This document shows, one piece after another, positions 39,596 to 59,835 of a stretch of DNA of 64,000 nt (the stretch's first letter is position 1; each line of letters opens with the position of its first letter). Source of the stretch: Ramlibacter pallidus (GTDB lineage: Bacteria > Pseudomonadota > Gammaproteobacteria > Burkholderiales > Burkholderiaceae_C); the NCBI RefSeq assembly GCF_015070875.1, contig NZ_JADDIV010000003.1:186001-250000 (forward strand), in the 5' to 3' direction. The notes under the pieces were generated by a model. The model saw nothing but the letters and a program-made list of their open reading frames with translations. It ran no database searches and was not told where the DNA came from. A program made the translations under genes and the position numbers.

Positions 39596-39677
39596 GCCGC
39601 CGCGGCCCGCGCCGGATGCGGCGCAGCGGCGCTGCATGGCACTTTCATGACAGCCGCATCGTCTAAGCTGCCGCGCT

Positions 39678-40679: not shown

Positions 40680-41464
40680 CGACGTGGGTCCTGCTGCGCG
40701 GACTGGCGCGGGAAGCGCGGCACTGGGGAGCGTTCCGCGGGCTGCTCGCCGCCAGCGTGCCGGCGGGCGACGAGGTCGTGGCGGTGGACCTCGCGGGCAA
40801 TGGCAGCCGCCGGCACCTGCGGACGCCGTCGACCTTGCACGGGATCGCGCAGGACGTGCGCCGGGCCGTGGCGGCCTCGCATCCGCCGCCGTACGTCCTG
40901 GTCGCCGTCTCGCTCGGCGGGATGGTGGCCACGGAATGGGCATTGCGCCATCCCGGGGAAGTGCAGGGATGCGTTCTCGTCAACAGCAGCCTGGGCCGCT
41001 TCTCGCCGCCGTGGCACCGCATGCGGCCGCGGGCCCTGCTGGAACTTGCCGCCTTGTCCCTCCTGCGCGATGCGCAGGCGCGCGAGCGCCGCGTCCTGCG
41101 CCTGACCAGCAACCTGCCGGTGGACGCCGACACGGCCGCCGCGTGGGCACGGTATGCACGGGAGTCGCCGGTGGCGCGCCTGAACGTATGGCGGCAGCTG
41201 TGGGCCGCGGCCGGCTACCGGCCGCCTCGCCGCCGTCCCGGTGTTCCACTGCTGCTGCTGGCGTCGACGCACGACCGGCTGGTGGACGTGCGTTGCTCGC
41301 GCGCCCTGGCGCAGGCCTGGGCCTGCCCCCTGCACGAGCATCCGCGTGCGGGCCACGACCTGCCGCTGGACGACCCGCGCTGGATCATCGCGCAGCTGCG
41401 CGACTGGCCCCCGCCTCGTACCAGCCCTGGCTGCGGTTCACCACCGCCACCACCGCCAGCATGA
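40676..41464 (+). CDS. Alpha/beta hydrolase
   Basis: 262-residue alpha/beta-fold hydrolase. The nucleophile is Ser79 in VAVSLGG, a variant of GxSxG with Ala at the first position. The acid fits Asp in LASTHDRLVD and the base His in PRAGHDLP. No cap domain of known type is evident, so the substrate is unknown. It is coupled to the M14 peptidase gene. The last 27 codons (a Pro-rich tail ending PPPPPPA) overlap the 3' end of the convergent acr3 gene by 80 bp. Confidence 0.8.
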   Translation: MTTWVLLRGLAREARHWGAFRGLLAASVPAGDEVVAVDLAGNGSRRHLRTPSTLHGIAQDVRRAVAASHPPPYVLVAVSLGGMVATEWALRHPGEVQGCVLVNSSLGRFSPPWHRMRPRALLELAALSLLRDAQARERRVLRLTSNLPVDADTAAAWARYARESPVARLNVWRQLWAAAGYRPPRRRPGVPLLLLASTHDRLVDVRCSRALAQAWACPLHEHPRAGHDLPLDDPRWIIAQLRDWPPPRTSPGCGSPPPPPPA

Positions 41465-42470
41465 GGGGGACCTCGATCAGCACGCCCACCACGGTGGCGA
41501 GGGCAGCGCCGGACTGGAAGCCGAACAGGCTGATCGCCGTGGCGACCGCGAGTTCGAAGAAGTTGCTGGCACCGATCAGGGCCGAGGGGCCGGCCACGCA
41601 GTGCTGCACGCCCATGCGGCGATTCAGCCAGTAGGCCAGGCCCGAGTTCAGCACCACCTGCACGAGGATCGGCACGGCGAGCACGGCGATCACCAGCGGC
41701 TGGCGCAGGATCGCCTCGCCCTGGAAGGCGAACAGCAGGACGAGCGTGAGCAACAGCGCCGCGATGGAAAGCGGGCCCAGCCGTGCGACCACGCGCTCGA
41801 AGTGCTTCACGCCGCGCTTCAGCAACGCGCGGCGCCAGGCCTGCGCGATGAGCACCGGCACCACGATGTACAGCCCCACGGAGGCCAGCAGCGTGTCCCA
41901 GGGCACGGTGATCGACGACAGGCCCAGGAGCAGGGCCACGATGGGCGCGAACGCGACGACCATGATGGCGTCGTTCAGCGCCACCTGCGACAGCGTGAAG
42001 TACGGGTCGCCCCGGCACAGCTGGCTCCAGACGAACACCATCGCCGTGCAGGGCGCGGCCGCCAGCAGGATCAGGCCCGCGATGTAGCTGTCGATCTGTT
42101 CGGCGGGCAGCCACGGCGCGAAGACGTGGCGGATGAAGATCCAGCCCAGCAGCGCCATCGAGAAGGGCTTGACCGCCCAGTTGATGAAGAGCGTGACGCC
42201 GATGCCGCGAGCGTGCGCCTTCACCTGCCCGAGCGCCGCGAAGTCGATCTTCAACAGCATCGGGACGATCATCACCCAGATGAGGATGCCGACCGGGATG
42301 TTCACGCGCGCCACTTCCATCGCGGCCACGGCGCGCGCCAGCCCCGGCGCGAGTTGGCCGAGCAGGATGCCCGCGGCGATGCACAGCCCGACCCAGACGG
42401 ACAGGTAGCGTTCGAAAAAGCCGATGCGCGGCGGCGGCGCCGCGTCCGCGGCGATGGTGGAGGCAGTCAT
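41385..42470 (-). CDS. acr3: Arsenite efflux transporter Acr3
   Basis: Exports arsenite across the inner membrane by ion-coupled transport. The 361-residue protein has about ten membrane helices (BART fold). AAPCTAMVFVWSQLCRGDP contains the conserved Cys thought to contact arsenite in Acr3, which separates it from ArsB. The GVQHCVAGPSALIGASNFFELAVATA segment is also typical. ATG 42470 overlaps the arsC stop by four bases. It is the last gene of the ars cluster. Confidence 0.93.
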   Translation of the reverse strand: MTASTIAADAAPPPRIGFFERYLSVWVGLCIAAGILLGQLAPGLARAVAAMEVARVNIPVGILIWVMIVPMLLKIDFAALGQVKAHARGIGVTLFINWAVKPFSMALLGWIFIRHVFAPWLPAEQIDSYIAGLILLAAAPCTAMVFVWSQLCRGDPYFTLSQVALNDAIMVVAFAPIVALLLGLSSITVPWDTLLASVGLYIVVPVLIAQAWRRALLKRGVKHFERVVARLGPLSIAALLLTLVLLFAFQGEAILRQPLVIAVLAVPILVQVVLNSGLAYWLNRRMGVQHCVAGPSALIGASNFFELAVATAISLFGFQSGAALATVVGVLIEVPLMLAVVAVVNRSQGWYEAGASRAAAR

Positions 42471-42970
42471 GACCCGGCGATGGCTTCGAGCGCCTGCTGC
42501 AGCTGCGGGCGCTCCATGGTGGAGAGGGGCAGGGCAAGCAGCTGCAGCATGCGGTAGCCGAGCGCCTGGCGCGTGAGCTCGAAGGCACGCCGCCGGCCTT
42601 CCTCGCCGCCTTCGGCGTTGGAGGGATCGGGGTAACCCCAGTGGACCTTCACGGGCTGGCCGTTGCCGCCGAAGAAGACAGGGCAGGTCTCGGCCGCCGC
42701 GCTGTCGCACACGGTGATCACGATGGACAGTGGCGGCGCGTCGGACGTCGTGAACTCGTCCCAGCTCTTGCTGCGGAAGCCGTCGGCCGCGACGCCGGCG
42801 TTGCGCAGCGCTTCGAGCGCGAAGGGGTTGATGCGGCCGCCGGGCGCGCTGCCGGCGCTGTGCGCGCGCACGTCGCGGCCCAGGCGGGCCGCGAGGTGGT
42901 TCAGCATGCCCTCGGCGAGGACGCTGCGCGCGGAGTTGTGCGTGCAGAGGATGAGGACGTGGGTGGTCAT
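42467..42970 (-). CDS. arsC: Arsenate reductase, low-molecular-weight phosphatase type
   Basis: Reduces arsenate to arsenite for export. The N-terminal CX5R loop is Cys9 to Arg15 in LCTHNSARS, the P-loop of low-molecular-weight tyrosine phosphatases. The redox cysteines fit VCDSAAAETCPVF (two Cys eight apart), and the Asp of the DPS motif is in GYPDPSN. Length 167 residues. This class normally uses thioredoxin or glutaredoxin as electron donor. The start is 79 bp after the arsI stop. Confidence 0.92.
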   Translation of the reverse strand: MTTHVLILCTHNSARSVLAEGMLNHLAARLGRDVRAHSAGSAPGGRINPFALEALRNAGVAADGFRSKSWDEFTTSDAPPLSIVITVCDSAAAETCPVFFGGNGQPVKVHWGYPDPSNAEGGEEGRRRAFELTRQALGYRMLQLLALPLSTMERPQLQQALEAIAGS

Positions 42971-43049
42971 GGACGGGCGATGGCACGCACCTGTTTCTGG
43001 ACGGCGAGGCGGTCGAGGCTCTCGAGCGGAGAGGCGCAGGCAAGGCCTT

Positions 43050-43526
43050 TCAGCAGCAGGCGGAGCCGGCGTTCACCGGGATGCCCACGGGCTTGCCGCG
43101 CGGAGCGCAGCAGGCGGATGCGTCCGCGGCTTGCGGCGGGGCCGCCTTGCGCGATTCGCCGAACACCGGGATGTCGCCCAGGGTCTGGAAGTGCTCCCAG
43201 GCGATGCCCTGCGGATCGGTGACCCAGTGCTTGTCGCTCTTCGCATAGCAGCAGGTGGTGGCGCCCTCGTCGAGGACGGGCGCATCGGCCGCCTGCGCGC
43301 GTGCCTTCAGCTCCGCCAGTTCCTGTGGCGTATCGGCCTGGAAGCCGAGATGGTCGACGCCCGGTGCCGAGCCGCGCGTGCTGATGGCGAAGTTCAGGCG
43401 CGGGTTCTCCAGGTGCCACTTCGCGTAGTCGGTCTCGGTGCGCACCGGCGCCGCGCCGAACATGCGGGAGTAGAAGGCGATGCTCGCCTGGAGGTCTTCG
43501 ACGTGGCCGTGGACGTGGAATCGCAT
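43050..43526 (-). CDS. arsI: ArsI-type C-As lyase (ArsI/CadI family)
   Basis: Non-heme iron dioxygenase of the glyoxalase/vicinal-oxygen-chelate fold that cleaves the carbon-arsenic bond of trivalent methyl- and aromatic arsenicals. The arsenic-binding vicinal pair Cys92-Cys93 is in GATTCCYAKSDKHW. Iron ligands fit an N-terminal His (His4 or His6 in FHVHGH), His59 in GVDHLGF and Glu111 in GIAWEHF. Two more Cys pairs lie in the C-terminal tail (SACC near residue 138 and at the end). Length 158 residues. It sits between arsR and arsC. Confidence 0.9.
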   Translation of the reverse strand: MRFHVHGHVEDLQASIAFYSRMFGAAPVRTETDYAKWHLENPRLNFAISTRGSAPGVDHLGFQADTPQELAELKARAQAADAPVLDEGATTCCYAKSDKHWVTDPQGIAWEHFQTLGDIPVFGESRKAAPPQAADASACCAPRGKPVGIPVNAGSACC

Positions 43527-43550
43527 GTCAGCTCCTTGGGGGGGTGGGAT

Positions 43551-43874
43551 TCAGCAGCCGCAGGCGGCGGCCGGGTCGACGGCGCATGCGGCGCCTTCGC
43601 AGCAGTTCTCGGTGAGGTATCCGAGCAACGCGTTCATGCGATCGAAGGCGGCGCGGTAGATCAGGTTGCGGCTGGCCCGTTCCTGCGTCACCAGGCCCGC
43701 GTTGGCGAGTTCCTTGAGGTGGAAGGACAGCGAGCTGGCGGCGATGCCCAGCCCCTCCGCCATGGTGGAGGGCGTCATGCCGCGGGGCCCGGCGATGACG
43801 AGGGCGCGGAACACCTGCAGCCGCACGGGCTGGGCCAGCGCGGCGAGCGACTTGACGACGTCGGATTCGGTCAT
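43551..43874 (-). CDS. arsR: ArsR family arsenic-responsive repressor
   Basis: Homodimeric winged-helix repressor of the ars cluster, released from DNA by trivalent arsenic. The helix-turn-helix is STMAEGLGIAASSLSFHLKELANAGLV. The sensing cysteines are not in the recognition helix (no CVCDL) but at the C-terminus: Cys91, Cys92, Cys97, Cys105 and Cys107. That arrangement resembles the C-terminal Cys type known from Acidithiobacillus ArsR. Length 107 residues. It is the first gene of the cluster. Confidence 0.93.
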   Translation of the reverse strand: MTESDVVKSLAALAQPVRLQVFRALVIAGPRGMTPSTMAEGLGIAASSLSFHLKELANAGLVTQERASRNLIYRAAFDRMNALLGYLTENCCEGAACAVDPAAACGC

Positions 43875-43880
43875 GTGCCG

Positions 43881-43908
43881 ATGATACTGTATTTCGGGAA
43901 AAGTGGAA
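43881..43908 (-). promoter_or_regulatory. Candidate arsR promoter
   Basis: On the minus strand TTCCAC (43908-43903) and TATCAT (43886-43881) are 16 bp apart. Initiation would fall close to the ATG, giving an almost leaderless mRNA. TACAGT, overlapping the same stretch, is an alternative -10. Confidence 0.4.
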
Positions 43909-43922
43909 TCGTCGTCCGCACG

Positions 43923-43978
43923 ACGTCATGAAGCTGCCACGGAACTGCCATGCGGCGGTCATTGCGGGGCAGCAGACT
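43923..43978 (+). promoter_or_regulatory. Double Pho box and -10 of the lipid-remodelling operon
   Basis: Four heptamers lie exactly 11 bp apart: ACGTCAT (43923), CTGCCAC (43934), CTGCCAT (43945) and CGGTCAT (43956), that is two tandem PhoB sites. CAGACT (43973-43978) stands 10 bp after the last heptamer as the -10. The OlsB-like gene starts 26 bp further on. The pattern matches the PhoB consensus CTGTCAT repeated with 4-bp spacers. Confidence 0.75.
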
Positions 43979-44003
43979 CCTTCACATCCACGCAGGAGCC
44001 GTC

Positions 44004-44831
44004 ATGAACGATCTGCCCCAGCCCACGCTGCCCTTCTCGCCGCAAGCCCTGCCCCGGGGGTCGCTTCACCGTCCTGAGACTGCTCCGGCGGCTGCGGCGC
44101 GCACTGGCGGCCTCGCCGTCACCTGGGCGCGCCACCTGGACGAAGTGAGGGAGGCGCAGCGGCTGCGCTTCCGCGTGTTCTCCGAAGAGATGGGCGCGCG
44201 GCTGGACACGGCGGTCGCCGGCCACGACGTGGACCTGTTCGACGAATACTGCGAGCACCTGCTGGTGCGCGACGAGGCCAGCGGCGAAGTGATCGGCACC
44301 TACCGGGTGCTCACTCCCGCGCAGGCGCGCCGCGTCGGCAGCTTCTACTCGGACGGCGAGTTCGACCTGTGGCGGCTGCGGCAGCTGCGCGAACGCATGG
44401 TGGAACTCGGGCGCAGCTGCGTCGACGCGCGGCATCGGCAGGGCGGGGTGATCCTGGCGCTGTGGGGCGCGCTCGGCAGCTTCATGCAGCGCAACGCCCT
44501 GGACACCATGATCGGCTGCGCCAGCATCCCGATGCTGCACAACGGCGTCGTCAGCGGCGACACCGCGGCCAGCGTCTGGCAGCAGCTGCGGCAGACGCAC
44601 CTGGCGCCGATCGAGCACCAGGTCACGCCCCGCCTGCCGCTGCCGGTGGAGCAACTGGACGGCAGCCTGCCGGTGGAGCCGCCCGCGCTGATCAAGGGTT
44701 ACCTGCGCCTGGGCGCCAAGGTGCTGGGCCCGCCGGCCTGGGACCCGGACTTCAACACGGCGGACCTGCCGATGCTGATGCGCATCCAGGACCTGGCGCC
44801 CCGGTACCGCAAGCACTTCCTGGGGACCTGA
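44004..44831 (+). CDS. olsB: OlsB-like ornithine/N-acyl amino acid acyltransferase
   Basis: GNAT-fold N-acyltransferase of 275 residues. OlsB enzymes transfer a 3-hydroxyacyl chain from ACP to ornithine, giving lyso-ornithine lipid. Family features seen: LRFRVFSEEMGAR near residue 55, DLFDEYCEHLLVRD, GTYRVLTP, GSFYSDGEFDLW, and MVELGRSCVDARHR followed by IGCASIPML. The first 40 residues are Pro-rich and poorly conserved. The partner OlsA is not in this window. It heads an operon behind a double Pho box, one base before the phosphoesterase gene. It could also acylate another amine. Confidence 0.75.
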   Translation: MNDLPQPTLPFSPQALPRGSLHRPETAPAAAARTGGLAVTWARHLDEVREAQRLRFRVFSEEMGARLDTAVAGHDVDLFDEYCEHLLVRDEASGEVIGTYRVLTPAQARRVGSFYSDGEFDLWRLRQLRERMVELGRSCVDARHRQGGVILALWGALGSFMQRNALDTMIGCASIPMLHNGVVSGDTAASVWQQLRQTHLAPIEHQVTPRLPLPVEQLDGSLPVEPPALIKGYLRLGAKVLGPPAWDPDFNTADLPMLMRIQDLAPRYRKHFLGT

Positions 44832-44832
44832 C

Positions 44833-45693
44833 ATGCGTGCCGCCTTCGACGCCTCGGGGTTCCTGGTCGACGCTTTCCGACCCTCCGCGGCGGACGAGGG
44901 CGATGACGCGCCGGGGGCCTTGCGCTACCGCGCCATCTTCATCTCCGACATCCACCTGGGGACGGCCGGCTGCCAGGCCGGGCCGCTGCTCGACTTCCTG
45001 AAGGCGCATCCCAGCGACACGCTCTACCTCGTCGGCGACATCGTCGACGGCTGGCAGCTGCGCAAGCGCTGGTACTGGCCGCAGTCGCACAACGACGTGG
45101 TGCAGAAGCTCCTGCGGCGGGCGCGCAAGGGCTGCCGCGTCGTCTATGTGCCGGGTAACCACGATGAGTTCGCCCGCCAGTTCGACGGCCACCATTTCGG
45201 CGGCATCGAGGTCCGCGAGGAGGCGGTGCACGTCACGGCCACCGGGCAGCGGCTGTGGGTCGTGCACGGCGACCGCTTCGACGGCGTCATCCAGTGCGCG
45301 AAGTGGCTGGCCTTCGTGGGCGATGCCATGTACGAGTGGACGCTGCGCATGAACCGGCACGTCAACCGCGCGCGGCAGTGGTTCGGGCTGCCGTACTGGT
45401 CGCTCTCCGCCTACCTGAAGCACAAGGTGAAGAAGGCGCTGAACTACGTGACCGACTTCGAACGCGCGGTGGCGCACGAGGCCCGGCGGCTCGGCCACGA
45501 CGGCGTGGTCTGCGGCCACATCCATCGCGCCGAGATGCGCGAGATCGACGGCGTCCTCTACTGCAACGACGGCGACTGGGTCGAAAGCCGCACCGCGCTG
45601 GTCGAACACTTCGACGGCCGGCTGGAACTGGTGCTGTGGCAGCCCGCCGAATCCCAACCCGTGGGGCACCGCGCCCTGGTGGAGGCCGCATGA
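44833..45693 (+). CDS. plcP: PlcP-like calcineurin-type phosphoesterase (LpxH-related)
   Basis: Metallophosphoesterase of 286 residues. Metal ligands are readable: Asp39 and His41 (SDIHLG), Asp69 (GDIVDGW), Asn109-His110 (GNHD), then VHGD and GHIH. It is automatically close to LpxH (UDP-diacylglucosamine diphosphatase). The stretches SHNDVVQKLLRRARKG, HFGGIEV, GLPYWSLSAYLKHKVK and NDGDWVESRTALVEH match, from memory, the PlcP family of phosphate-starvation phospholipases C better. PlcP cuts the head group from phospholipids to leave diacylglycerol. Coupling to the GT4 gene (ATGA overlap) supports this. Confidence 0.72.
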   Translation: MRAAFDASGFLVDAFRPSAADEGDDAPGALRYRAIFISDIHLGTAGCQAGPLLDFLKAHPSDTLYLVGDIVDGWQLRKRWYWPQSHNDVVQKLLRRARKGCRVVYVPGNHDEFARQFDGHHFGGIEVREEAVHVTATGQRLWVVHGDRFDGVIQCAKWLAFVGDAMYEWTLRMNRHVNRARQWFGLPYWSLSAYLKHKVKKALNYVTDFERAVAHEARRLGHDGVVCGHIHRAEMREIDGVLYCNDGDWVESRTALVEHFDGRLELVLWQPAESQPVGHRALVEAA

Positions 45694-46772
45694 AGATCGC
45701 ATTGGTCACCGACGCCTGGACGCCCCAGGTGAACGGCGTCGTCACGACGCTGCTGGAACTGGTGCGCCACCTGCGCGCGGGCGGGCACCAGGTGCAGGTG
45801 ATCGACCCCGGGCAGTTCCCGACCCGTCCGTGCCCCGGCTACCCCGGCATCGACCTCGCGGTGTCGCCGGGCCGGCCGGTGGCCGACAAGCTGGATGCCT
45901 TCCAGCCGGATGCCATCCACATCGCGACCGAAGGACCGCTCGGCTGGGCCGCGCGGCGCTACTGCCTGCGCCGCGGCCTGGCCTTCACGACCGCCTTCCA
46001 CACCAAGTTCCCCGAGATCGCGAACGCGGCCGTGAAGCTGCCGCTCGCCTGGGGCTATGCCTTGTTCCGCCACTTCCACGCGCCTTCGTCCGGCGTGATG
46101 GTGCCGACGCGCAGCGTGCTGGAAGGACTGCAGGCGCGCGGCTTCCGCAACCTGCGCGCCTGGACCCACGGCGTCGACACCGACCTGTTCGCGTTCCGGC
46201 CCGAACCCGGCACCTTCCCCGGCCTGGAGAACGCCTCGCGCCCGGTCGCGCTGTTCGTGGGCCGCGTCTCGTACGAGAAGAACATCTCCGCCTTCCTGGA
46301 GATGAACTTTCCCGGGACCAAGGTCGTGTGCGGCGTCGGGCCGGTGGAGGCGGCGCTCAAGCAGAAGTACCCGCACGTGCATTGGGTGGGCCTGCTGCCC
46401 CGGCCCGAACTCGCGAAGCTGTATGCGGCCGCCGACGTGTTCGTCTTTCCCAGCCGGGCCGACACTTTCGGCCTGGTCATGGTGGAGGCCATGTCCTGCG
46501 GGACGCCCGTGGCCGCCTATCCCGTCGACGGCCCCCTGACCGTGCTGGAGCAGCCCGACGAGGACGGCACCGGCCGCCTCGGCGGCGCCATGCACGAGGA
46601 CCTGCGGCGCGCCACCGGCACCGCCTTGTCGGTGTCGCGCCACGACGCGCGCCTGCGGGCGCTGGACTTCAGCTGGGGCGAGGCGTCGGCGCTGTTCGCG
46701 AGCTTCCTCGTCCCCGCACGGCGGGCCGCGCCCAGCGGCGGGACGCCGGCGGCCGTCACGGGACTGTCATGA
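45690..46772 (+). CDS. agt: Agt-like GT4 glycosyltransferase
   Basis: Glycosyltransferase family 4 protein of 360 residues with GT-B fold. The N-terminus MKIALVTDAWTPQVNGVV is the GT4 acceptor-domain start. ALFVGRVSYEKNISAFLEM and VFVFPSRADTFGLVMVEAMSCG hold the donor-site basic residues and the EX7E motif. Together with the PlcP-like gene it fits Agt, which glycosylates diacylglycerol to glycolipid under phosphate limitation; the sugar is unknown. The stop falls within the Pho boxes of ppk. A mannosyltransferase role is the alternative. Confidence 0.7.
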   Translation: MKIALVTDAWTPQVNGVVTTLLELVRHLRAGGHQVQVIDPGQFPTRPCPGYPGIDLAVSPGRPVADKLDAFQPDAIHIATEGPLGWAARRYCLRRGLAFTTAFHTKFPEIANAAVKLPLAWGYALFRHFHAPSSGVMVPTRSVLEGLQARGFRNLRAWTHGVDTDLFAFRPEPGTFPGLENASRPVALFVGRVSYEKNISAFLEMNFPGTKVVCGVGPVEAALKQKYPHVHWVGLLPRPELAKLYAAADVFVFPSRADTFGLVMVEAMSCGTPVAAYPVDGPLTVLEQPDEDGTGRLGGAMHEDLRRATGTALSVSRHDARLRALDFSWGEASALFASFLVPARRAAPSGGTPAAVTGLS

Positions 46773-46813
46773 GGCCGTCATAACCGGGCTCGAAACTGCC
46801 ACGAAACCGTCAT
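46753..46813 (+). promoter_or_regulatory. Pho boxes and -10 of ppk
   Basis: CCGTCAC (46753), CTGTCAT (46764) and CCGTCAT (46775) have an 11-bp period. GAAACT (46792-46797) is 10 bp after the third as the -10. A second pair, CTGCCAC (46796) and CCGTCAT (46807), follows with the same internal period. The first repeats lie inside the 3' end of the GT4 gene. Confidence 0.72.
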
Positions 46814-46825
46814 CCATCCGCCGCC

Positions 46826-48916
46826 ATGTGCGACGCCGCGCCCAAGCACGTTCCCTTCCTCGACCGCGACCATAGCATCCTGGCCTTCAATGAGCGGGTG
46901 CTCGACTGGGCGTTGCGGGACGACGTGCCGCTGCTCGAGCGGCTGCGGTTCCTGACCATCGTCTCCTCCAACCTCGACGAGTTCTTCGAGGTGCGCGCGG
47001 CCGACCACCTTTCCGCCGCCCAGGCCGGCGAGCTCAAGGGCCCGTACACCGTGCGCAGCTTCCAGAAGCTGGCGGCAGCCGCCCACGCACTGGTCGAGCG
47101 CCAGTACGCCGTCTACAACGAGCAGCTGATGCCGGCGTTCGCGCGCCACGGGATCGCGATCGTTTCGCACGGCGAGCGCGATGCGAAGCAGAAGGCCTGG
47201 GTGCACGACCACTTCGAGAAGCAGGTGCGGCCACTGCTGATCCCGGTCGGCCTCGACCCCGCGCACCCGTTCCCGCAGGTCGCCAACAAGTCGCTCAACT
47301 TCATCGTGCGGCTGTCCGGCAAGGATGCCTTCGGCCGCGAGAACGAGATCGCCATCGTCAAGGTGCCGCGCGTGCTGCCCCGGCTGATCCCCATGCCCGC
47401 CGCCGTGTCCGGCAAGCGCAGGCTGCTGGTGTCGCTGTCGAGCGTGATCCGCGCGCACCTGGACCTGCTGTTCCCGGGCCGCGAGGTCGGGCAGTTCTCG
47501 CAGTTCCGGCTGACGCGCCACTCCGACGTCGCGGTCGGCGAGGAAGAGGTGCGCAACCTGCGCACGGCGCTCCGGCTGGGCCTGCAGCAGAGGCACTACG
47601 GCCAGGCGGTGCGGCTGGAGGTTTCGGCCGGCTGCTCGGAACACCTCTCCGACTTCCTGCTGCGGCAGTTCGGCCTGCCGGAGGACGCGCTGTACCGCGT
47701 GCACGGTCCGGTGAACCTGGTGCGCCTGCAGCAGATGATCGACCTGGTCGACGCGCCGAAACTGCTCTTTCCCGTCCACACGCCGGGCTTCCCGCGCGGG
47801 CTGGTGCCCGGCCGGCCGATCTTCGAGCAGCTGAAGAAGCGCGACGTCCTGATCCACCAGCCGTACGAGAGTTTCGACGGCGTGCTGGCCTTCCTGCGCG
47901 AGGCGGTGAACGACCCGCAGGTGCTCGCGATCAAGCAGACCATCTACCGCACCGGCAACGACTCGCAGATGATGGAGCTGCTGCGGGAGGCCGTGCGCCT
48001 GGGCAAGGAAGTGACGGTCGTGGTGGAGCTCAAGGCCCGCTTCGACGAGGAAGCGAACATCAACTGGGCCGAGGCCCTGGAGAAGGTGGGGGCGCAGGTG
48101 GTCTACGGCGTCGTCGGCCTCAAGACGCACGCCAAGATGCTGCTGGTGACCCGGCGTGAAGGACAGAAGCTGGTGCGCTACGCCCACCTCTCGACCGGCA
48201 ACTACAACCCGCGCTCCGCGCGGCTCTACACCGACCTGAGCCACCTCACCGCCGACCCGCAACTCACCGCCGACGTGGAGCAGGTGTTCGTGCACCTGGC
48301 CAGCCAAAGCCGGCTGCCGAAGCTTCACCAGGTCTGGATCGCGCCCTTCCACCTGCAGCGGCGGATGATGGAGATGGTGGATCTCGTCGGCGCCGCGGCC
48401 GCCGAGGGCCTGGACGGGCGCATCGTGCTCAAGATGAACGCGCTGACCGACGAGCCGCTGATGGAGGCGCTGGTGCGCGCCAACCGGCAGGGCGCGAAGA
48501 TCGACCTGATCGTGCGCGGGGCCTGCATGCTGCCGGCCGGCGTGCCGGGGCTGTCGGAGAACATCCGCGTGCGCTCCGTCATCGGCCGGTTCCTGGAGCA
48601 TTCGCGGGTCTTCTACTTCCGGGCCGGCAAGCAGGAACACCTTTACCTTTCCAGCGCCGACTGGATGAACCGCAACATGCTGCGCCGGGTCGAACTGGCC
48701 TGGCCGGTGACCGACCCGCAGCTGCGCCAGCGCATCGTCGACGAGTGCCTGCTGGCCTACCTGCACGACAACCGCGACGCCTGGGACCTGCAGCCGGACG
48801 GCAGCTACAAGCGCGTCAAGGGCGCCGAGGAGCCGCGCGGACATGGCGCGCAGGCCGCGCTGATGGACCGCTACGCCGCCCCGCCGGGCGAGGAGGAGCC
48901 GCCGACATGGACCTGA
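46826..48916 (+). CDS. ppk1: Polyphosphate kinase 1
   Basis: Reversibly polymerises the ATP gamma-phosphate into polyphosphate at the membrane. The 696-residue product begins with the helical N-domain (DRDHSILAFNERVLDWA). The phosphorylated His lies in YGVVGLKTHAKMLLVTRREG, followed by HLSTGNYNPRSARLYTDLSHL. The second active-site His is in FLEHSRVFYFRAGKQEHLYLSSADWMNRN. Length matches E. coli Ppk (688). Pho boxes stand directly upstream. It overlaps sixA by ten bases. Confidence 0.97.
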   Translation: MCDAAPKHVPFLDRDHSILAFNERVLDWALRDDVPLLERLRFLTIVSSNLDEFFEVRAADHLSAAQAGELKGPYTVRSFQKLAAAAHALVERQYAVYNEQLMPAFARHGIAIVSHGERDAKQKAWVHDHFEKQVRPLLIPVGLDPAHPFPQVANKSLNFIVRLSGKDAFGRENEIAIVKVPRVLPRLIPMPAAVSGKRRLLVSLSSVIRAHLDLLFPGREVGQFSQFRLTRHSDVAVGEEEVRNLRTALRLGLQQRHYGQAVRLEVSAGCSEHLSDFLLRQFGLPEDALYRVHGPVNLVRLQQMIDLVDAPKLLFPVHTPGFPRGLVPGRPIFEQLKKRDVLIHQPYESFDGVLAFLREAVNDPQVLAIKQTIYRTGNDSQMMELLREAVRLGKEVTVVVELKARFDEEANINWAEALEKVGAQVVYGVVGLKTHAKMLLVTRREGQKLVRYAHLSTGNYNPRSARLYTDLSHLTADPQLTADVEQVFVHLASQSRLPKLHQVWIAPFHLQRRMMEMVDLVGAAAAEGLDGRIVLKMNALTDEPLMEALVRANRQGAKIDLIVRGACMLPAGVPGLSENIRVRSVIGRFLEHSRVFYFRAGKQEHLYLSSADWMNRNMLRRVELAWPVTDPQLRQRIVDECLLAYLHDNRDAWDLQPDGSYKRVKGAEEPRGHGAQAALMDRYAAPPGEEEPPTWT

Positions 48917-52571: not shown

Positions 52572-53051
52572 TCAGCGGCGCGGCGGCATCAGGACGCGGT
52601 CTACCTTGTGCACGACGCCGTTGGTGGCGGCGATGTCGGCCGTTTCCACCATCGCTTCCTCCACGGTGATGAACTCGCCGGCGCGGGACAGGGCGACGTT
52701 CGCGCCTTGGGCCGTCTTGGCGTTGCCCGGCTTCACGGCCGATGCATTCAGCTTCGCGGGCACCACGTGGTAGTTCAGGACTTCCTTCAGCTTCGCCGGG
52801 TCGGCGGAAAGCTCCTGCATCGTCTTGGCCGGCACCGCCTGGAACGCGGCGTTGGTGGGCGCGAACACGGTGTAGGGGCCGGCGGCCTTCAGGGTGTCGG
52901 CCAGGCCGGCGCGGGCGACGAGGGAGTTCAGCGTGCTCAGTTGCGGGTCGCGGGCGATCGTCTCGGCGACGCTGGCGGGGGCCTGCTGCTGCGTCGAGGC
53001 GCAGGCGGCGAGCAGGAGCAGGGCGGGGGCGAGGGCGAGCAGGCGGTTCAT
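52572..53051 (-). CDS. Fasciclin domain lipoprotein
   Basis: 159-residue secreted protein with one FAS1 domain. The signal peptide ends in the lipobox LAAC, so it is probably membrane-anchored at Cys17. FAS1 motifs are GPYTVFAPTNAAFQAVP (H1-like) and LNYHVVPAKLNAS, with a C-terminal IAATNGVVHKVDRVLMP. FAS1 proteins act in adhesion and carbohydrate binding. ATG 53051 has CGGAGGA upstream. A four-heptamer Pho array points towards it. Confidence 0.88.
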   Translation of the reverse strand: MNRLLALAPALLLLAACASTQQQAPASVAETIARDPQLSTLNSLVARAGLADTLKAAGPYTVFAPTNAAFQAVPAKTMQELSADPAKLKEVLNYHVVPAKLNASAVKPGNAKTAQGANVALSRAGEFITVEEAMVETADIAATNGVVHKVDRVLMPPRR

Positions 53052-53086
53052 GGCAATCCTCCGGTTGTTGTCGATGGGCGCGGCGG

Positions 53087-53178
53087 AGCTTAGGCAGGGC
53101 GCGTGACAAGCCCGTGACCGGCGCATGACAGCGGCATGACAGGCGTGTCACGCAGCTGTCACGGGCGCTGCCTAGAGT
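53087..53178. promoter_or_regulatory. Divergent Pho-box array (fasciclin gene and pstS)
   Basis: Minus strand: CTGTCAT (53142-53136), CTGTCAT (53131-53125), CGGTCAC (53120-53114) and TTGTCAC (53109-53103), 11 bp apart, with TAAGCT (53092-53087) as the -10 ten bp downstream. Plus strand: GTGTCAC (53145) and CTGTCAC (53156), then TAGAGT (53173-53178) ten bp downstream. The two arrays are back to back with two bases between. Confidence 0.8.
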
Positions 53179-53217
53179 CCGCGGCATCGATTCCTTCCAC
53201 AACCAGAGGTGAACTCC

Positions 53218-54255
53218 ATGACCAACCGCTTCCGCATCACCGCCGCCGGCATCGCCGCGCTCGCCTTCAGCGGCCTCGCCGCCGCCCAGGACGTGACCGG
53301 CGCCGGCGCGAGCTTCCCCGCGCCCCTGTACTCCAAGTGGGCCGCCGACTACAACAAGGCCACCGGCACCCGCATCAACTACCAGTCGGTCGGCTCCGGT
53401 GCCGGCCTGCGCCAGATCGAGGCGAAGACCGTGGACTTCGGCGCCTCCGACGCGCCGCTGAAGGACGAGGAGCTCGCGAAGAAGGGCCTGGTGCAGTTCC
53501 CCACCGTCATCGGCGGCGTGATCCCGGTGGTGAACATCAAGGGCATCGCCCCGGGCCAGCTGCGCCTGAACGGCCAGGTGCTGGGCGACATCTACCTGGG
53601 CAAGATCACCAAGTGGAACGACGCCGCCATCAAGGCGCTGAACCCGAGCCTGGCGCTGCCCGATGCGGCCATCGCCCCGGTGCGCCGCGCCGACGGTTCC
53701 GGCACCAGCTTCATCTTCACCAACTACCTGTCGAAGGTGAACGCGGACTGGAAGGCGAAGGTCGGTGAAGGCACCGCCGTCAACTGGCCCACCGGTGCCG
53801 GCGGCAAGGGCAACGAGGGCGTCGCCGCCTTCGTGGGCCGCCTGCCCAACTCGATCGGCTACGTCGAGTACGCCTACGTCAAGCAGAACAAGATGACCTA
53901 CGCGCTGATGCAGAACGCCGCCGGCCAGTTCGTGTCGCCCGACGACACGGCTTTCAAGGCCGCCGCCGCCGGTGCCGACTGGTCCAAGTCCTTCTACCAG
54001 ATCCTCACCCAGCAGCCCGGCGCGCAGTCCTGGCCCATCACCGGCGCTACCTTCATCCTGATGCAGAAGGCGCAGGACAAGCCGGCCCAGGCCGCCGCCA
54101 CCCTGAAGTTCTTCGACTGGGCCTACAAGAACGGCGACAAGACCGCGGAAGACCTGGACTACGTGCCGATGCCCAGCGCGGTGAAGGCGCAGATCGAGAA
54201 GCTGTGGGCGGCCGAGATCAAGGACGCCTCCGGCAAGAACGTGGCCTTCCGCTGA
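53218..54255 (+). CDS. pstS: Phosphate-binding protein PstS, soluble form
   Basis: Periplasmic receptor of the high-affinity phosphate transporter. The signal peptide is cleaved after GLAAA (residue 23), with no lipobox. Phosphate-contact segments are [34 protein letters not shown] and [12 protein letters not shown]. Length 345 residues. ATG 53218 is preferred over a GTG three codons upstream because GAGGT is well spaced to it. A Pho box stands upstream and a second pstS follows 108 bp later. Confidence 0.96.
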
Positions 54256-54261
54256 ACGGCT

Positions 54262-54278
54262 GGCGGCCTGGCGCCGCC
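54262..54278 (+). other. Hairpin between the two pstS genes
   Basis: GGCGGC / GCCGCC form a 6-bp stem with a 5-base loop, seven bases after the first pstS stop. There is no T run. It could stabilise the pstS mRNA 3' end, which would favour more PstS than transporter. Confidence 0.35.
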
Positions 54279-54297
54279 TCCCGGCGCGGCTCCGGAC

Positions 54298-54331
54298 CTG
54301 TCACGGAGCCGTCACAAAACCTTCATACAGT
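54298..54331 (+). promoter_or_regulatory. Pho box and -10 of the second pstS
   Basis: CTGTCAC (54298) and CCGTCAC (54309) are 11 bp apart; a weaker third heptamer, CCTTCAT, follows at 54320. TACAGT (54326-54331) lies ten bp after the second heptamer as the -10. The gene starts 32 bp later. Confidence 0.75.
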
Positions 54332-54363
54332 CGCTGCAACCCTGCACTCGAGGCTGTCCGCGC

Positions 54364-55464
54364 ATGAAGATCCCGTCCCTCCTGGCTGCCGTGCTGGCCG
54401 TCGCCGCGCTTGGCGGCTGCGGCCGGTCCGAGCCTTCCGCGCCCACGGCGGCCGCCCCCGCGGCGGCACCTGCGTCGGCGCCCGCCGGCGGCACTGGGGA
54501 CGTGACCGGCGCCGGCGCCAGCTTCCCCGCTCCCCTGTACGCCAAGTGGGCCGCCGACTACCACGCGGCCAGCGGCGTGCGCGTGAACTACCAGTCCGTG
54601 GGCTCGGGGGCCGGCGTCCGGCAGATCGAGGCGAAGACGATCGACTTCGGCGCATCCGATGCGCCGCTCAAGGACGAGGAGCTGCAGGCCAAGGGCCTCG
54701 TGCAGTTCCCCATGGTGATCGGCGGCGTGATCCCGGTCGTGAACCTCAAGGGCGTCGCGCCCGGCCAGCTGCGCCTGACCGGCCAGTTGCTGGGCGACAT
54801 CTACCTCGGCAAGGTGACGCGCTGGAGCGATCCGGCGATCAAGGACCTGAACCCGGGCCTGGCGCTGCCGGATGCGGCGATCGCCCCGGTGCGCCGGGCG
54901 GACGGGTCGGGCACCAGCTTCATCTTCACCAACTACCTCTCCAAGGTGAACGCGGAGTGGAAAGCCAAGGTCGGCGAAGGCACGGCGGTCAACTGGCCGG
55001 CGGGCACCGGCGGCAAGGGCAACGAGGGCGTGGCTGCCTTCGTCAGCCGGTTGCCGGGCTCCATCGGCTACGTCGAGTACGCCTACGTCAAGCAGAACAG
55101 GATGAACTACGCGCTGGTGCAGAACGCCGACGGCCAGTTCGTCGCGCCGGACGCGGCCAGCTTCCAGGCGGCTGCCGCCGGCGCGGACTGGGGCAAGAGC
55201 TTCTACCAGGTCCTCACGCAGCAACCCGGGGCGCAGGCGTGGCCGCTGACCGGCGCCACCTTCATCCTGATGCACAAGACGCAGGACCGGCCGGCGCAGG
55301 CCGCCGCCGCCCTGAAGTTCTTCGGCTGGGCCTACCGCAACGGCGACGGCACGGCGGACCAGCTGGCCTACGTGCCGATGCCGGACAGCGTGACGGCGCG
55401 GGTCGAGAAGCTGTGGGCGACCGAGATCAAGGACGCATCCGGCCAACCCGTGGCACTCCAATGA
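54364..55464 (+). CDS. pstS: Phosphate-binding protein PstS, lipoprotein form
   Basis: Close paralogue of the preceding PstS; most of the mature sequences are identical or nearly so by eye from [14 protein letters not shown] onwards. It differs at the N-terminus: a lipoprotein signal with lipobox ALGGC (Cys19), then a 25-residue Ala/Pro-rich linker. It would therefore be membrane-anchored. Length 366 residues. Phosphate-site motifs [12 protein letters not shown] and [12 protein letters not shown] are intact. It has its own Pho box and lies 43 bp before pstC. Confidence 0.95.
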
Positions 55465-55507
55465 AAAGCAGTTCCCTGCAACCGGGCAGCGGTTTCCGCC
55501 GCCGCCC

Positions 55508-56560
55508 ATGAACGACGAAGGCACCGACGTGTCCTCTACACTTTCGGCCGATGAGGCCAGCCTCTCCCCGGTCACCCGCGACCGCCCCGGCCGCATGAGC
55601 CTGCCGCCCTCGGCCGGCCGGGCGCGCGCGGGGGCAGTCATCGACCGGCTGTTCGGGTGGACGGCCCGCTTCGCGGCCCTGATCACGCTGGGCCTGCTGG
55701 CGGCCATCCTCGTCTCGCTCTTCATCGGCGCCGCGCCGGCCATCCAGAAGTACGGACTGGACTTCCTCACCAACAGCGTGTGGGACCCGGTGAGCGGCGA
55801 GTACGGCGGCCTCGTGATGATCTACGGCACGCTGGCCACTTCGATCATCGCCCTGGTCATCGCGGTGCCCGTGAGCTTCGGCATCGCGCTGTTCCTGACC
55901 GAGCTGTCGCCCTCCTGGCTGAAGCGCCCGCTGGGCACGGCGATCGAGCTGCTCGCCGCCGTCCCTTCGATCGTCTACGGCATGTGGGGCCTGCTGGTGT
56001 TCGGGCCCATCCTCGCCACCTACGTGCAGCAGCCGCTGCAGGGCCTGTTCGGCGACGTGCCCTATCTCGGCACGCTGTTCTCGGGACCGCCGGTGGGCAT
56101 CGGCATCCTGGCCGCCGGGATCATCCTGGCCATCATGATCATCCCCTTCATCGCGGCGGTGATGCGCGACGTCTTCGAGGTGACGCCCCCCATGCTGAAG
56201 GAAAGCGCCTATGCGCTCGGCTCCACCACCTGGGAGGTCGTCTACAAGGTGGTGCTGCCCTATACGAAAGGCGGCGTGATCGGCGGCATCATGCTGGGCC
56301 TCGGCCGCGCGCTTGGCGAGACCATGGCCGTGACCTTCGTCATCGGCAACTTCAACCAGCTCGATTCGCTGAGCCTGTTCACGCCGGCCAACAGCATCAC
56401 GTCGGCGCTGGCCAACGAGTTCGCCGAGGCGGCGGACGGGCTGCACCAGGCGGCGCTGATCTACCTGGGCCTGGTGCTGTTCTTCATCACCTTCGTGGTG
56501 CTGTCGTTGTCCAAACTGCTGCTGGCGCGCCTGCGCCGCAACGAGGGGGCTGTGGCATGA
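55508..56560 (+). CDS. pstC: Phosphate ABC transporter permease PstC
   Basis: One of two inner-membrane permeases of PstSCAB. 350 residues, with a 45-residue polar N-terminal extension and six hydrophobic segments. The EAA loop that contacts PstB is in [45 protein letters not shown] is typical of PstC. The stop lies at the edge of a hairpin repeat before pstA. Confidence 0.95.
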
Positions 56561-56585
56561 GCCGCCGGGCCGCCCCAAGGCTCAT
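56557..56585. repeat. Hairpin repeat between pstC and pstA
   Basis: ATGAGCC / GGCTCAT, a perfect 7-bp inverted repeat, encloses a GC-rich loop; the following CCGCAGCGCGTAGCGCGGAGG up to the pstA ribosome site belongs to the same pattern. I recognise this as a short element common between cotranscribed genes in Comamonadaceae. The left arm overlaps the pstC stop. Confidence 0.55.
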
Positions 56586-56618
56586 GGCCCCGCAGCGCGT
56601 AGCGCGGAGGGAAGTCCA

Positions 56619-57503
56619 ATGAGCACCGCCGAACGCCTGCTGCGCGCGGCTGCCGACAGCGAGCAGCGCGAGCGCATGTACCGCAAGCGCAAGCGCGTGA
56701 ACCAGGTGGCGTTGGTGCTGTCGCTCGGCGCGATGGCCTTCGGCGTCTTCTGGCTGATCTGGATCCTGTGGGAGACGGTGCGGCTCGGCTTCGCCGGGCT
56801 GACCTGGGCGACCGTGAGCCAGATGACGCCGCCGCCCAACGAGGCCGGGGGCATCCTCAACGCCATCTGGGGCTCGCTGCTGATGGTGGTGCTGGCGACC
56901 TTCGTCGGCACGCCGATCGGGATCATGGCCGGTATCTACCTGGCCGAGTACGACCCCAAGGGCTGGCTGGGCAACACGACCCGCTTCGTCAACGACATCC
57001 TGCTGTCGGCGCCTTCCATCGTGATCGGCCTGTTCGTCTACGCAGTGGTCGTGGCGCGCTACAAGCAGTTCTCCGGCTGGGCCGGGGCGATCGCGCTGGC
57101 GCTGATCGTGATCCCCGTGGTCATCCGCACCACGGAGAACATGCTGCTGCTGGTGCCCTCGGCGCTGCGCGAGGCCGCGTATGCGCTCGGGGCGCCGAAG
57201 TGGAAGGTGATCCTGAAGATCACGCTGCGCGCTTCGCGGGCGGGCGTGGTCACCGGCATCCTGCTGGCCGTGGCCCGGATCTCGGGCGAAACCGCGCCGC
57301 TGCTGTTCACGGCCCTGAACAACCAGTTCTTCACCTCCAACATGGGCGAGCCGATGGCCAGCCTGCCGGTCACCATCTTCAAGTTCGCGATGAGCCCCTA
57401 CGAGAACTGGCAGCAGCTGGCGTGGGCGGGCGTCTTCATCATCACCCTGGCCGTGCTGGGCCTGAACATCCTCGCGCGGCTGCTCACGCGCAGCAAGCTC
57501 TGA
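56619..57503 (+). CDS. pstA: Phosphate ABC transporter permease PstA
   Basis: Second permease of the Pst system, 294 residues, six membrane segments. The EAA loop is [27 protein letters not shown], followed by [21 protein letters not shown], a PstA signature. The first 30 residues are charged and cytoplasmic. It is 8 bp upstream of pstB. ATG 56619 follows GGAGGGAAG. Confidence 0.95.
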
Positions 57504-57511
57504 GAACACCC

Positions 57512-58294
57512 ATGGAAGCCACCCTCGCTCCCGACCGCGTGCGCGCCAAGATCGCCGTGCGCAACCTGAACTTCTACTACGGCAAGTTCCACGCCCTCAA
57601 GGGCATCAACCTGGACATCGCCGAGAACAAGGTGACGGCCTTCATCGGCCCGTCCGGCTGCGGCAAGTCGACGCTGCTGCGCACCTTCAACCGCATGTAC
57701 GAGCTGTACCCCGACCAGCGGGCCGAGGGCGAGATCGTGCTGGACGGCGAGAACCTGCTGACGTCGAAGAAGGACGTCGCCCTGATCCGCGCCCGCGTGG
57801 GCATGGTGTTCCAGAAGCCCACGCCGTTCCCCATGTCGATCTACGACAACATCGCCTTCGGCGTGCGGCTCTTCGACAACCTCGGCGAAGCCGACATGGA
57901 CGACCGCGTCGAATGGGCGTTGCGCAAGGCGGCGCTGTGGGACGAGGTCAAGGACAAGCTGACCCAGAGCGGCTCCGGCCTCTCCGGCGGCCAGCAGCAG
58001 CGCCTGTGCATCGCCCGCGGCATCGCGATCAAGCCGGACGTGCTGCTGCTCGACGAGCCGTGCTCGGCGCTCGACCCGATCTCCACCGGCAAGATCGAGG
58101 AGCTGATCATCGAGCTGAAGAAGGACTACACCGTCGTGATCGTCACGCACAACATGCAGCAGGCGGCGCGGGTGTCCGACTACACCGCCTACATGTACCT
58201 GGGCGACCTGGTGGAGGTGGGCGAGACGGAGCAGATCTTCTTCAAGCCCAAGCGCCAGGAGACCGAGGACTACATCACGGGGAGGTTTGGTTGA
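57512..58294 (+). CDS. pstB: Phosphate ABC transporter ATPase PstB
   Basis: ATPase driving phosphate import and, with PhoU and PhoR, phosphate sensing. Walker A is GPSGCGKST, the signature motif [14 protein letters not shown] and Walker [14 protein letters not shown]. The switch His is in [15 protein letters not shown]. Length 260 residues. A dispersed repeat separates it from phoU. Confidence 0.97.
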
Positions 58295-58370
58295 CCACCC
58301 CGAAGCGGCCCTTGGCCGCCTCCCCTCAAGGGGCGCCCCAGCGGCCCGGCGAAGCCGGTTCCGCGGGGCC
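58295..58370. repeat. Dispersed intergenic repeat, copy 2 (pstB-phoU)
   Basis: A 76-bp element beginning CCACCCCGAAGCGG that aligns with 11036-11113 through CCCCTCAAGGGG and GCCCGGCGAAGCCGG. Differences are mostly compensatory within stems, which suggests that the folded form is kept. Confidence 0.75.
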
Positions 58371-58402
58371 TCGGCGCGATGGACTAACAGGACGGAGTTG
58401 AT

Positions 58403-59107
58403 ATGCCCGACAAACACCTCTCGACGCAGTTCGACAGCGAACTCAACGCGCTGTCGTCCCGCGTCATGGAACTCGGCGGCCTCGTGGAGTCGCAGATCCG
58501 CTTCGCCATCCATGCGATCAGCGAGTTCAACGCCGACGTGGCCCGCCAGGTCATCGAGACCGAAGACCGCGTCAACCAGATGGAAGTCGAGATCGACCGC
58601 GACCTGTCGTCGGTGATCGCGCGGCGCCAGCCGACGGCACGCGACCTGCGCCTGCTGATGGCGATCTCCAAGACCACCGCGAACCTGGAGCGCGTGGGCG
58701 ACGAGGCCCGGCGCATCGCGCGCATGGTGCTGTCGATCGTGGAGAAGAACGGCCCCGTCCGCACGCTGCCGGCCGGCGAGCTGCGGGTGTCCGCCGACCT
58801 GGCCGCGCTCCAGCTGCGCAAGGTGCTGGACGCCTTCGCGCGGCTTGACACCGTCGCCGCGGTGGCGATCATGAAGGGCGACGACCTGCTGGACCGGGAG
58901 TTCGACGGGTTCGTGCGCAAGCTGATCACGTACATGATGGAGGACCCGCGCACGATCTCCAGCAGCCTGGACCTGCTGTTCGTCGCCAAGGCCATCGAAC
59001 GGATCGGCGACCATGCCAAGAACATCGCCGAGTTCATCATCTACGTCGTGAAGGGCGCCGACGTGCGCCACAGCTCGATGGAGAACATCGAGTCCGCCAT
59101 CAAGTAG
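58403..59107 (+). CDS. phoU: Phosphate signalling protein PhoU
   Basis: Peripheral negative regulator linking PstSCAB to PhoR. 234 residues forming two three-helix bundles; each repeat has the acidic metal-binding E/DxxxD pattern (RVGDEARRIARMVL and RIGDHAKNIAEFIIYVVKG). Length equals the family norm (E. coli 241). It is preceded by a 108-bp gap with a repeat and followed by phoB after four bases. Confidence 0.96.
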   Translation: MPDKHLSTQFDSELNALSSRVMELGGLVESQIRFAIHAISEFNADVARQVIETEDRVNQMEVEIDRDLSSVIARRQPTARDLRLLMAISKTTANLERVGDEARRIARMVLSIVEKNGPVRTLPAGELRVSADLAALQLRKVLDAFARLDTVAAVAIMKGDDLLDREFDGFVRKLITYMMEDPRTISSSLDLLFVAKAIERIGDHAKNIAEFIIYVVKGADVRHSSMENIESAIK

Positions 59108-59111
59108 GCCC

Positions 59112-59825
59112 ATGAAGCACCAGCCGCGCATCCTGATCGTCGAAGACGAGCCCGCCATCGCGGAGCTGATCGCCGTGAACCTGCGGCACAACGGCTTCTC
59201 CCCGGTGTGGGCCGAGGACGGCGACGCCGCCCAGCGCGAGATCGACGCCGTACTGCCCGACGCCATCCTGCTGGACTGGATGCTGCCGGGGCAGAGCGGC
59301 GTGGCACTGGCCCGCCGCTGGCGCGCGGACGCCCGCACCAAGACCATCCCCATCGTGATGCTGACGGCACGGGGCGACGAGACCGACAAGGTGAGCGGGC
59401 TCGACGCCGGCGCCGACGACTACGTCACCAAGCCGTTCTCCACGCACGAACTGCTCGCGCGCATCCGGGCGGTGCTGCGCCGCAGGCTGCCCGAGAAGGC
59501 GGAGGAGACCGTCACGCTGGGCGAGCTCACGCTGGACGGTGCCGCGCACCGCGTCAGCTGGAAGGGCCGGCCGCTGAAGATCGGCCCGACCGAGTTCAAG
59601 CTCCTGAACTTCCTGATGAAGCACCCGGAGCGCGTGCACAGCCGCCAGCAGCTGCTGGACAAGGTCTGGGGCGACCACGTCTTCATCGAGGAGCGCACGG
59701 TGGACGTGCACGTCAAGCGCCTGCGCGAGTCCCTCGGCCCCGGCGGTGCGCTGGTGGAGACGGTGCGCGGCGCCGGCTACCGCATCACGGCCCAACCCGT
59801 GGGCCGCCCGCAGGAAACCGCATGA
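59112..59825 (+). CDS. phoB: Phosphate regulon response regulator PhoB
   Basis: OmpR-family activator of the Pho regulon. The receiver domain has the acidic pair EDE near residue 11, phosphoacceptor Asp55 in LLDWMLPG and the switch Lys in YVTKPFSTHELLARI. The winged-helix DNA-binding domain holds SRQQLLDKVWGDHVFIEERTVDVHVKRLRE. Length 237 residues. It lies in one string with phoU and phoR; Pho boxes elsewhere in this window are its expected targets. Confidence 0.97.
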   Translation: MKHQPRILIVEDEPAIAELIAVNLRHNGFSPVWAEDGDAAQREIDAVLPDAILLDWMLPGQSGVALARRWRADARTKTIPIVMLTARGDETDKVSGLDAGADDYVTKPFSTHELLARIRAVLRRRLPEKAEETVTLGELTLDGAAHRVSWKGRPLKIGPTEFKLLNFLMKHPERVHSRQQLLDKVWGDHVFIEERTVDVHVKRLRESLGPGGALVETVRGAGYRITAQPVGRPQETA

Positions 59826-59835
59826 GCGTGGTTCC

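Follow-up and report, generated by a model that had tools for sequence, protein, structure and literature searches.

A conserved olsB-plcP-glycosyltransferase gene cluster behind Pho boxes in Ramlibacter pallidus, a predicted phosphate-controlled operon for two kinds of phosphorus-free membrane lipids

Can the glycolipid and the aminolipid routes of phospholipid replacement be placed under a single phosphate-controlled promoter? The question is raised by three genes of Ramlibacter pallidus located in the 64,000-nucleotide stretch analysed here, positions 186,001 to 250,000 of contig NZ_JADDIV010000003.1 (assembly GCF_015070875.1), hereafter named the window. All three lie on the plus strand. 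The first, likely the first gene of an operon, encodes an OlsB-like N-acyltransferase of family PF13444 (44004-44831; Acetyltransf_5, 119 bits), the second a PlcP-like metallophosphoesterase with a GNHD motif (44833-45693; Metallophos_2, 50 bits; Metallophos, 46 bits), and the third an Agt-related GT4 glycosyltransferase (GT) of a clade characterised by a histidine discussed below (45690-46772; Glyco_transf_4, 75 bits; Glycos_transf_1, 68 bits). They are usually followed by the polyphosphate kinase gene ppk1, which in the window occupies nucleotides 46826-48916 (domain scans). As the original prediction had placed them, olsB and plcP are separated by 1 bp and plcP and the GT gene share an ATGA overlap. 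The olsB open reading frame (ORF) opens at 43950. However, this upstream ATG overlaps the Pho sites described below, and the olsB start is therefore probably at 44004, where an AGGAG precedes the ATG and where the alignment of OlsB proteins from many relatives begins. We consider it probable that the three genes form one PhoB-activated operon serving both replacement routes.

The arrangement is conserved as a contiguous unit beside ppk, in agreement with the three-gene operon originally proposed. In a set of 80 named-genome loci, chosen as the best PlcP loci, 47 show olsB-plcP-GT in this order on one strand, no gap exceeding 186 bp, and 39 of these run on into ppk; some of the others are interrupted by contig ends. 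The genera include Limnohabitans, Polaromonas, Rhodoferax, Curvibacter, Acidovorax, Hydrogenophaga, Ottowia and Ramlibacter; the recurrence of the same order in so many genera indicates that the trio is more than a chance arrangement. Within the genus, OlsB matches were found in 35 of 59 genomes (E <=1e-20), and 15 of the 19 best congener loci besides that of the window carry the trio. In a sample of 100 genomes of the same family (E <=1e-40), 79 had an OlsB match, 72 a PlcP match and 40 a GT match, and the three genes are adjacent, as judged by start distance, in 25; one of these, G314, has a 0.8-kb gap between plcP and the GT gene. A GT match occurred only together with a PlcP match (40/40, as compared to 0/28 genomes lacking PlcP; Fisher p 2.7e-8, a value that ignores kinship). 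A few matches in this sample are weak, with 36-37% identity for the GT in G304 and G370 and 39% for PlcP in G339, and may thus not be orthologues. Across the order, OlsB was matched in 215 of 300 genomes (E <=1e-10) and PlcP in 148 of 300 (E <=1e-40); olsB and plcP lie within 10 kb of each other in at least 22 of the 148, representing nine families and several arrangements. Outside the order a GT gene adjoins plcP in nine of the eleven loci read, and the PlcP homologues there show 39-64% identity; in a sample of the phylum, 102 of 299 genomes gave a PlcP match.

A separate observation concerns two loci of small-genome relatives (L155:1741-5018 and L156:1911-5121), in which the order is plcP, GT, an intervening gene and olsB, accompanied by a divergent OlsA/PlsC-like gene. 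A domain scan of one of the two intervening genes identified a diacylglycerol kinase (PF01219, 103 bits), and the second appears to be of the same kind; their products may recycle diacylglycerol inside a lipid cluster.

The control of the cluster by phosphate is suggested by Pho boxes. Using the consensus CTGTCATNNNNCTGTCAT, as printed in PMC8528852, a tandem array was located immediately before olsB (43934-43962, plus strand, CTGCCAC-GGAA-CTGCCAT-GCGG-CGGTCAT), consisting of three 7-mers spaced by 11 bp, in which the sites at 43934 and 43945 score 11/14 and 12/14. The score of the upstream region (43875-44003) was equalled by one of 500 dinucleotide shuffles (p 0.002). A second cluster, the probable ppk promoter, spans 46753-46813 on the same strand, overlapping the 3' end of the GT gene, with sites at 46753, 46764 and 46796 that match in 12/14, 13/14 and 11/14 positions, respectively. 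When both strands of the 64 kb were scanned, ten sites reached at least 11/14 matches, nine of which are positioned ahead of olsB, ppk or the two pstS-like genes. The sites also recur in relatives. A matrix built from 39 sites located before ppk in related genomes was applied to 97 distinct olsB upstream regions (OlsB identity >=60%, loci without plcP included), so that the matrix was trained and tested at the same loci but on different promoters; sites at p<=0.05 were found in 73 of the 97 regions (4.9 expected), whereas in a within-operon control, the region upstream of the GT gene, 3 of 59 passed (3.0 expected). On the olsB promoter of the window this matrix scored 12.8 (p 0.016, the minimum attainable with 60 shuffles). 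The plain consensus performed less well in relatives, with at least 11/14 matches in 18 of 70 regions (1.5% expected). In Burkholderia sensu lato, Pho boxes have been predicted before olsB in 21 of 43 genomes with a first matrix (PMC7814305). The double Pho box and PhoB-type control of the original prediction are thus supported by conserved sites before olsB and by PhoB- and PhoR-type genes in the window, and the operon would be expected to respond to phosphate through PhoB.

The original prediction was to be refuted if the middle gene clustered with true LpxH and was the only lpxH of the genome, and this condition fails. LpxH belongs to the same calcineurin-like metallophosphoesterase family, and two features recall it: LpxH models are the best NCBIfam matches of the product, and LpxH structures are its sole PDB sequence matches up to E 0.1. 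The possibility that it is a second or the real LpxH is nevertheless very improbable. The scores to the two models (43.5 and 38.4 bits) are far below their cut-offs (134 and 190), so that the forecast that routine annotation would name the gene LpxH is borne out only in the ranking of the models. A search for a canonical lpxH, set beforehand as a test, located one at G000:C6 in the genome of the window (231.8 and 199 bits), and LpxH above cut-off is present in 18 of 21 relatives searched, this genome included. In a tree, 18 LpxH sequences, all with the motif GNRD, form a clade (support 100/98) apart from 38 PlcP-type sequences. As one side of a branch the PlcP group has support of 72/60 in a tree whose very distant outgroup rows are unreliable; L161 and L165 were omitted for poor overlap. 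The GNHD motif was found in 38 of the 40 PlcP-type sequences prepared, the other two giving no match. The phosphoesterase is therefore PlcP-like rather than LpxH, as originally proposed, and is probably a PlcP-type phospholipase C with predicted activity on phosphatidylethanolamine (PE) and phosphatidylglycerol (PG).

The third gene fits its description as an Agt-like GT4 only in part. The predicted fold is GT4/GT-B, with MshA as the nearest structure and PimA and BshA also similar, and the motifs GRVSYEKN and FPSRADTFG each differ by one letter from the Agt motifs GRVAXEKN and FPSXTDTFG (PMC8231724). In a tree of 88 GTs the operon-type enzymes form a separate clade of 62 sequences (support 100/100). 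The window enzyme groups with its Ramlibacter albus counterpart (99/96), and its identity to canonical plcP-linked GTs amounts to 44-53%. In GTcp, a member of the Agt clade, His104, Asp256, Arg163 and Trp320 are essential, a mutant at R163 is inactive and the change Asp256Glu abolishes more than 90% of the activity (PMC8231724). As placed by motif against GTcp, the window enzyme retains the catalytic His104 and Asp (Asp258) as well as the Trp and has His160, within WTHGVD, at the Arg163 site. Residue counts over the 62 clade sequences, made with wider patterns, the window excluded and one duplicate kept, gave His 60, Gln 1 and Pro 1 at the Arg site and Glu 53, Asp 8 and one unmatched at the catalytic Asp site, while 21 neighbouring sequences of the tree have Asp in all 21 and, at the Arg site, Arg in 15, Lys in two and four unmatched. 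The GT is a relative of Agt, separated from its plain members by clade and by residues that GTcp requires.

These changes make diacylglycerol unsafe as the acceptor, and the GT may instead use another acceptor or another sugar, or perform a second glycosylation step. His replaces the diacylglycerol-binding Arg and Glu the catalytic Asp in most of the clade, and both GT types, with both copies read, coexist in four genomes (G333, G358, G364 and G378), which suggests different jobs; G314 also has a second copy in the canonical clade, with the Arg site unmatched. The two clade members with Pro (L018) and Gln (L152) come from olsB-GT-ppk loci that lack plcP. Such a role is possible and in our view unlikely: the GT co-occurs with PlcP, the presumed source of diacylglycerol, it retains the catalytic His and Trp and substantial identity to canonical plcP-linked GTs, and Lys occupies the Arg site in the plcP-linked GTs of two genomes from another family of the class, an indication that this position is not frozen.

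The identification of the first gene as olsB raises two further questions, which amino acid is acylated and where the second acyltransferase is encoded. Two NCBIfam OlsB models are by far the best matches, yet the score of 151 bits is below their equivalog cut-offs of 320 and 350; both, as we read their short names, were built around alphaproteobacterial proteins. The structure model (predicted local distance difference test score, pLDDT, 86.5) has a fold like those of GNAT enzymes and acyl-homoserine lactone synthases, with LasI as the nearest PDB entry (E 6.9e-8), while a PDB sequence search with the protein gave no match. A second PF13444 gene was not found in the genome of the window. The enzyme might make another aminolipid, or several, so that sugar lipids would be combined with a non-ornithine aminolipid, such as a lysine, glutamine or glycine lipid; PF13444 is a family of aminolipid N-acyltransferases that includes OlsB, GluB and GlsB (PMC11631085), the OlsB of Acinetobacter baumannii makes both ornithine and lysine lipids (PMC11828411), and the sub-threshold score leaves room for such a difference. 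We regard this as a doubtful alternative, as the OlsB models remain the best matches and OlsB homologues together with ornithine lipids have been reported in Burkholderia sensu lato (PMC7814305).

It had been noted that olsA is missing and that the OlsB product might for this reason be used differently. The absence holds for the window. The genome has four PF01553 acyltransferases, one of which is an OlsA/PlsC-type candidate (G000:C1:713920-714621; 145.6 bits to the OlsA model, cut-off 300) that follows genes we take to be pyrB and pyrC. With such a gene present, the OlsB product need not be used differently. Matches to the candidate (E <=1e-30) were found in 76 of 79 OlsB-positive and 16 of 21 OlsB-negative family genomes (p 0.0096); in three of the 76 (G322, G325 and G359) the sole match is a relative with 36-39% identity beside or near olsB, and without them the count is 73 of 79 (p 0.05). 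This family is not specific to OlsB. The OlsA of Rhodobacter capsulatus is said to be bifunctional, which would fit a candidate not tied to OlsB, and in A. baumannii it has been demonstrated that olsB is Pho-regulated and that olsA lies elsewhere and is not regulated by phosphate (PMC11828411). OlsA/PlsC-like genes occur in 14 of 115 olsB- or plcP-holding loci read, including six of the 80 named ones; of the others, four (L134-L137) were retrieved on account of such a match, an identical protein is encoded in L051 and L134, and a distance of 6.5 kb separates the gene from olsB in L137.

The predicted course of events is as follows. Under low phosphate, PhoR-PhoB, encoded about 12 kb downstream, would bind the tandem Pho boxes and induce transcription of olsB, plcP and the GT gene as one message, while ppk would be transcribed from its own Pho boxes. 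PlcP would strip PE and PG of their phosphate head groups, yielding diacylglycerol and phosphorus for reuse, and the GT would place a sugar on the diacylglycerol. OlsB would transfer a 3-hydroxyacyl group to the nitrogen of an amino acid, ornithine being the most likely one; the aminolipid would be completed by an O-acyltransferase whose gene lies elsewhere, possibly the candidate described above.

A number of observations weigh against a single operon for both routes. The trio is not constant: among the 80 named loci, 11 have olsB-plcP-ppk with no GT gene between (L062, L084, L087, L090, L099, L102, L108, L109, L111, L113 and L123; Limnohabitans and Hydrogenophaga are represented); an OlsB match is lacking in 24 of 59 congeners, and in four of the 19 congener loci olsB is followed directly by ppk; and of the 100 family genomes, ten have adjoining plcP and GT genes and an olsB located elsewhere, 25 have separate olsB and plcP genes and lack the GT, 13 have OlsB only and 15 have none of the three. 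No Pho box at p 0.05 precedes olsB in 24 of the 97 regions. The GT clade has His instead of the GTcp Arg163 and mostly Glu instead of Asp256, OlsB homologues can give lysine, glutamine or glycine lipids (PMC11828411, PMC11631085), and the candidate OlsA family is shared by most family genomes without an OlsB match (16/21). The separability of the parts would agree with three independent members of the Pho regulon that happen to share a promoter, in which case the lipid swap would be no more coordinated than from scattered loci; Pseudomonas provides an example, with PlcP and OlsAB under Pho control at separate loci (PMC5082522, PMC9804370). We think this unlikely. The clustering of olsB and plcP recurs in nine families, a count made without regard to kinship, and in different arrangements, which argues for selection on joint expression. 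One operon for both routes is the reading that we retain.

The original prediction had placed the trio next to ppk and pst; ppk does follow it directly, and the pst-phoU-phoBR genes are found further downstream. A ppx/gppA-type gene is present at 49860, and the plus-strand stretch 53209-61197 includes two pstS-like genes, a permease gene (56619), phoU and the phoB- and phoR-type genes, thus the transporter and regulator belonging to this regulon; judged by position, an ORF at 55508 and nucleotides 57500-58400 presumably hold the remaining pst genes. Sites at 53114, 53125, 53145 and 54298 precede the two tandem pstS-like genes (53209-55464). Between the first of these (plus strand) and a fasciclin-domain gene (52572-53126, minus strand), the Pho boxes at 53114-53162 have opposite orientations, and the fasciclin-domain gene may also be Pho-controlled. 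The tenth Pho site of the window (39636-39653, minus strand, 12/14) lies directly upstream of an M14 zinc carboxypeptidase ORF (39678), presumably followed by an alpha/beta hydrolase gene, and this stretch may be a further unit of the Pho regulon. On the other side of olsB, an arsenic-resistance-like group (41385-43874, minus strand) stands beside the Pho genes; its members include an ArsR-type regulator, a protein of the glyoxalase fold that carries Cys pairs close to its end and may be ArsI-like, a low-molecular-weight-phosphatase-type ArsC and, we assume, an arsenite exporter.

The cluster combines features of systems known singly. It resembles the plcP-agt operons of Pelagibacter, Pseudomonas aeruginosa (PA3219-PA3218) and Methylosinus trichosporium in having plcP directly before a GT4 gene, with Pho boxes in several of them, and differs in that olsB comes first, ppk follows, and the GT falls into a clade of its own, with altered active-site letters; plcP-agt operons have been described (PMC8528852, PMC9239053), and the sections consulted of PMC4796936 list six types of plcP neighbourhood and do not mention olsB. 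The Pho-controlled OlsB-OlsA pathway of A. baumannii, the olsBA genes of P. aeruginosa and that predicted in Burkholderia sensu lato share with it the PF13444 enzyme and the Pho box, and in A. baumannii, as here, olsA lies away from olsB (PMC11828411); in contrast to all of these, olsB heads a plcP-GT operon in the window. In Desulfovibrio alaskensis G20, glycolipids and ornithine lipids jointly take the place of phospholipids by means of agt and olsF, and mutants of both have been characterised (PMC5193443); unlike the operon described here, the two genes have separate locus tags (Dde_3613 and Dde_3661) and the enzyme is OlsF rather than OlsB. One Pseudomonas strain has been reported to have PlcP and OlsAB proteins that depend on Pho (PMC5082522). 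Control of PlcP and OlsAB together is thus already known in Pseudomonas at the level of the Pho regulon (PMC5082522, PMC9804370), and what is new, within the literature searched, is the union in a single operon and the diverged GT. No description of an olsB-plcP-GT operon or of this lipid swap in Comamonadaceae was found in the open-licence literature searched, in the portions consulted, most subscription papers being outside its scope.

For annotation, the consequence is that the middle gene should not carry the name LpxH. The natural His and Glu changes of the GT provide a probe of acceptor choice in diacylglycerol glycosyltransferases. They tentatively allow the idea, one that we rate as rather unlikely, that the GT is a functionally distinct family, the changes marking another acceptor or sugar, and that Comamonadaceae would produce a hitherto undescribed phosphorus-free lipid, coordinately with the OlsB aminolipid. 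The presence of a single promoter makes coordination directly testable. The plcP work consulted concerns marine bacteria, methanotrophs and Pseudomonas, and the Comamonadaceae, a family of water and soil bacteria, extend this range: the operon predicts that in members of this family, including Limnohabitans and Polaromonas, phospholipids would be replaced in a coordinated manner by two kinds of phosphorus-free lipids.

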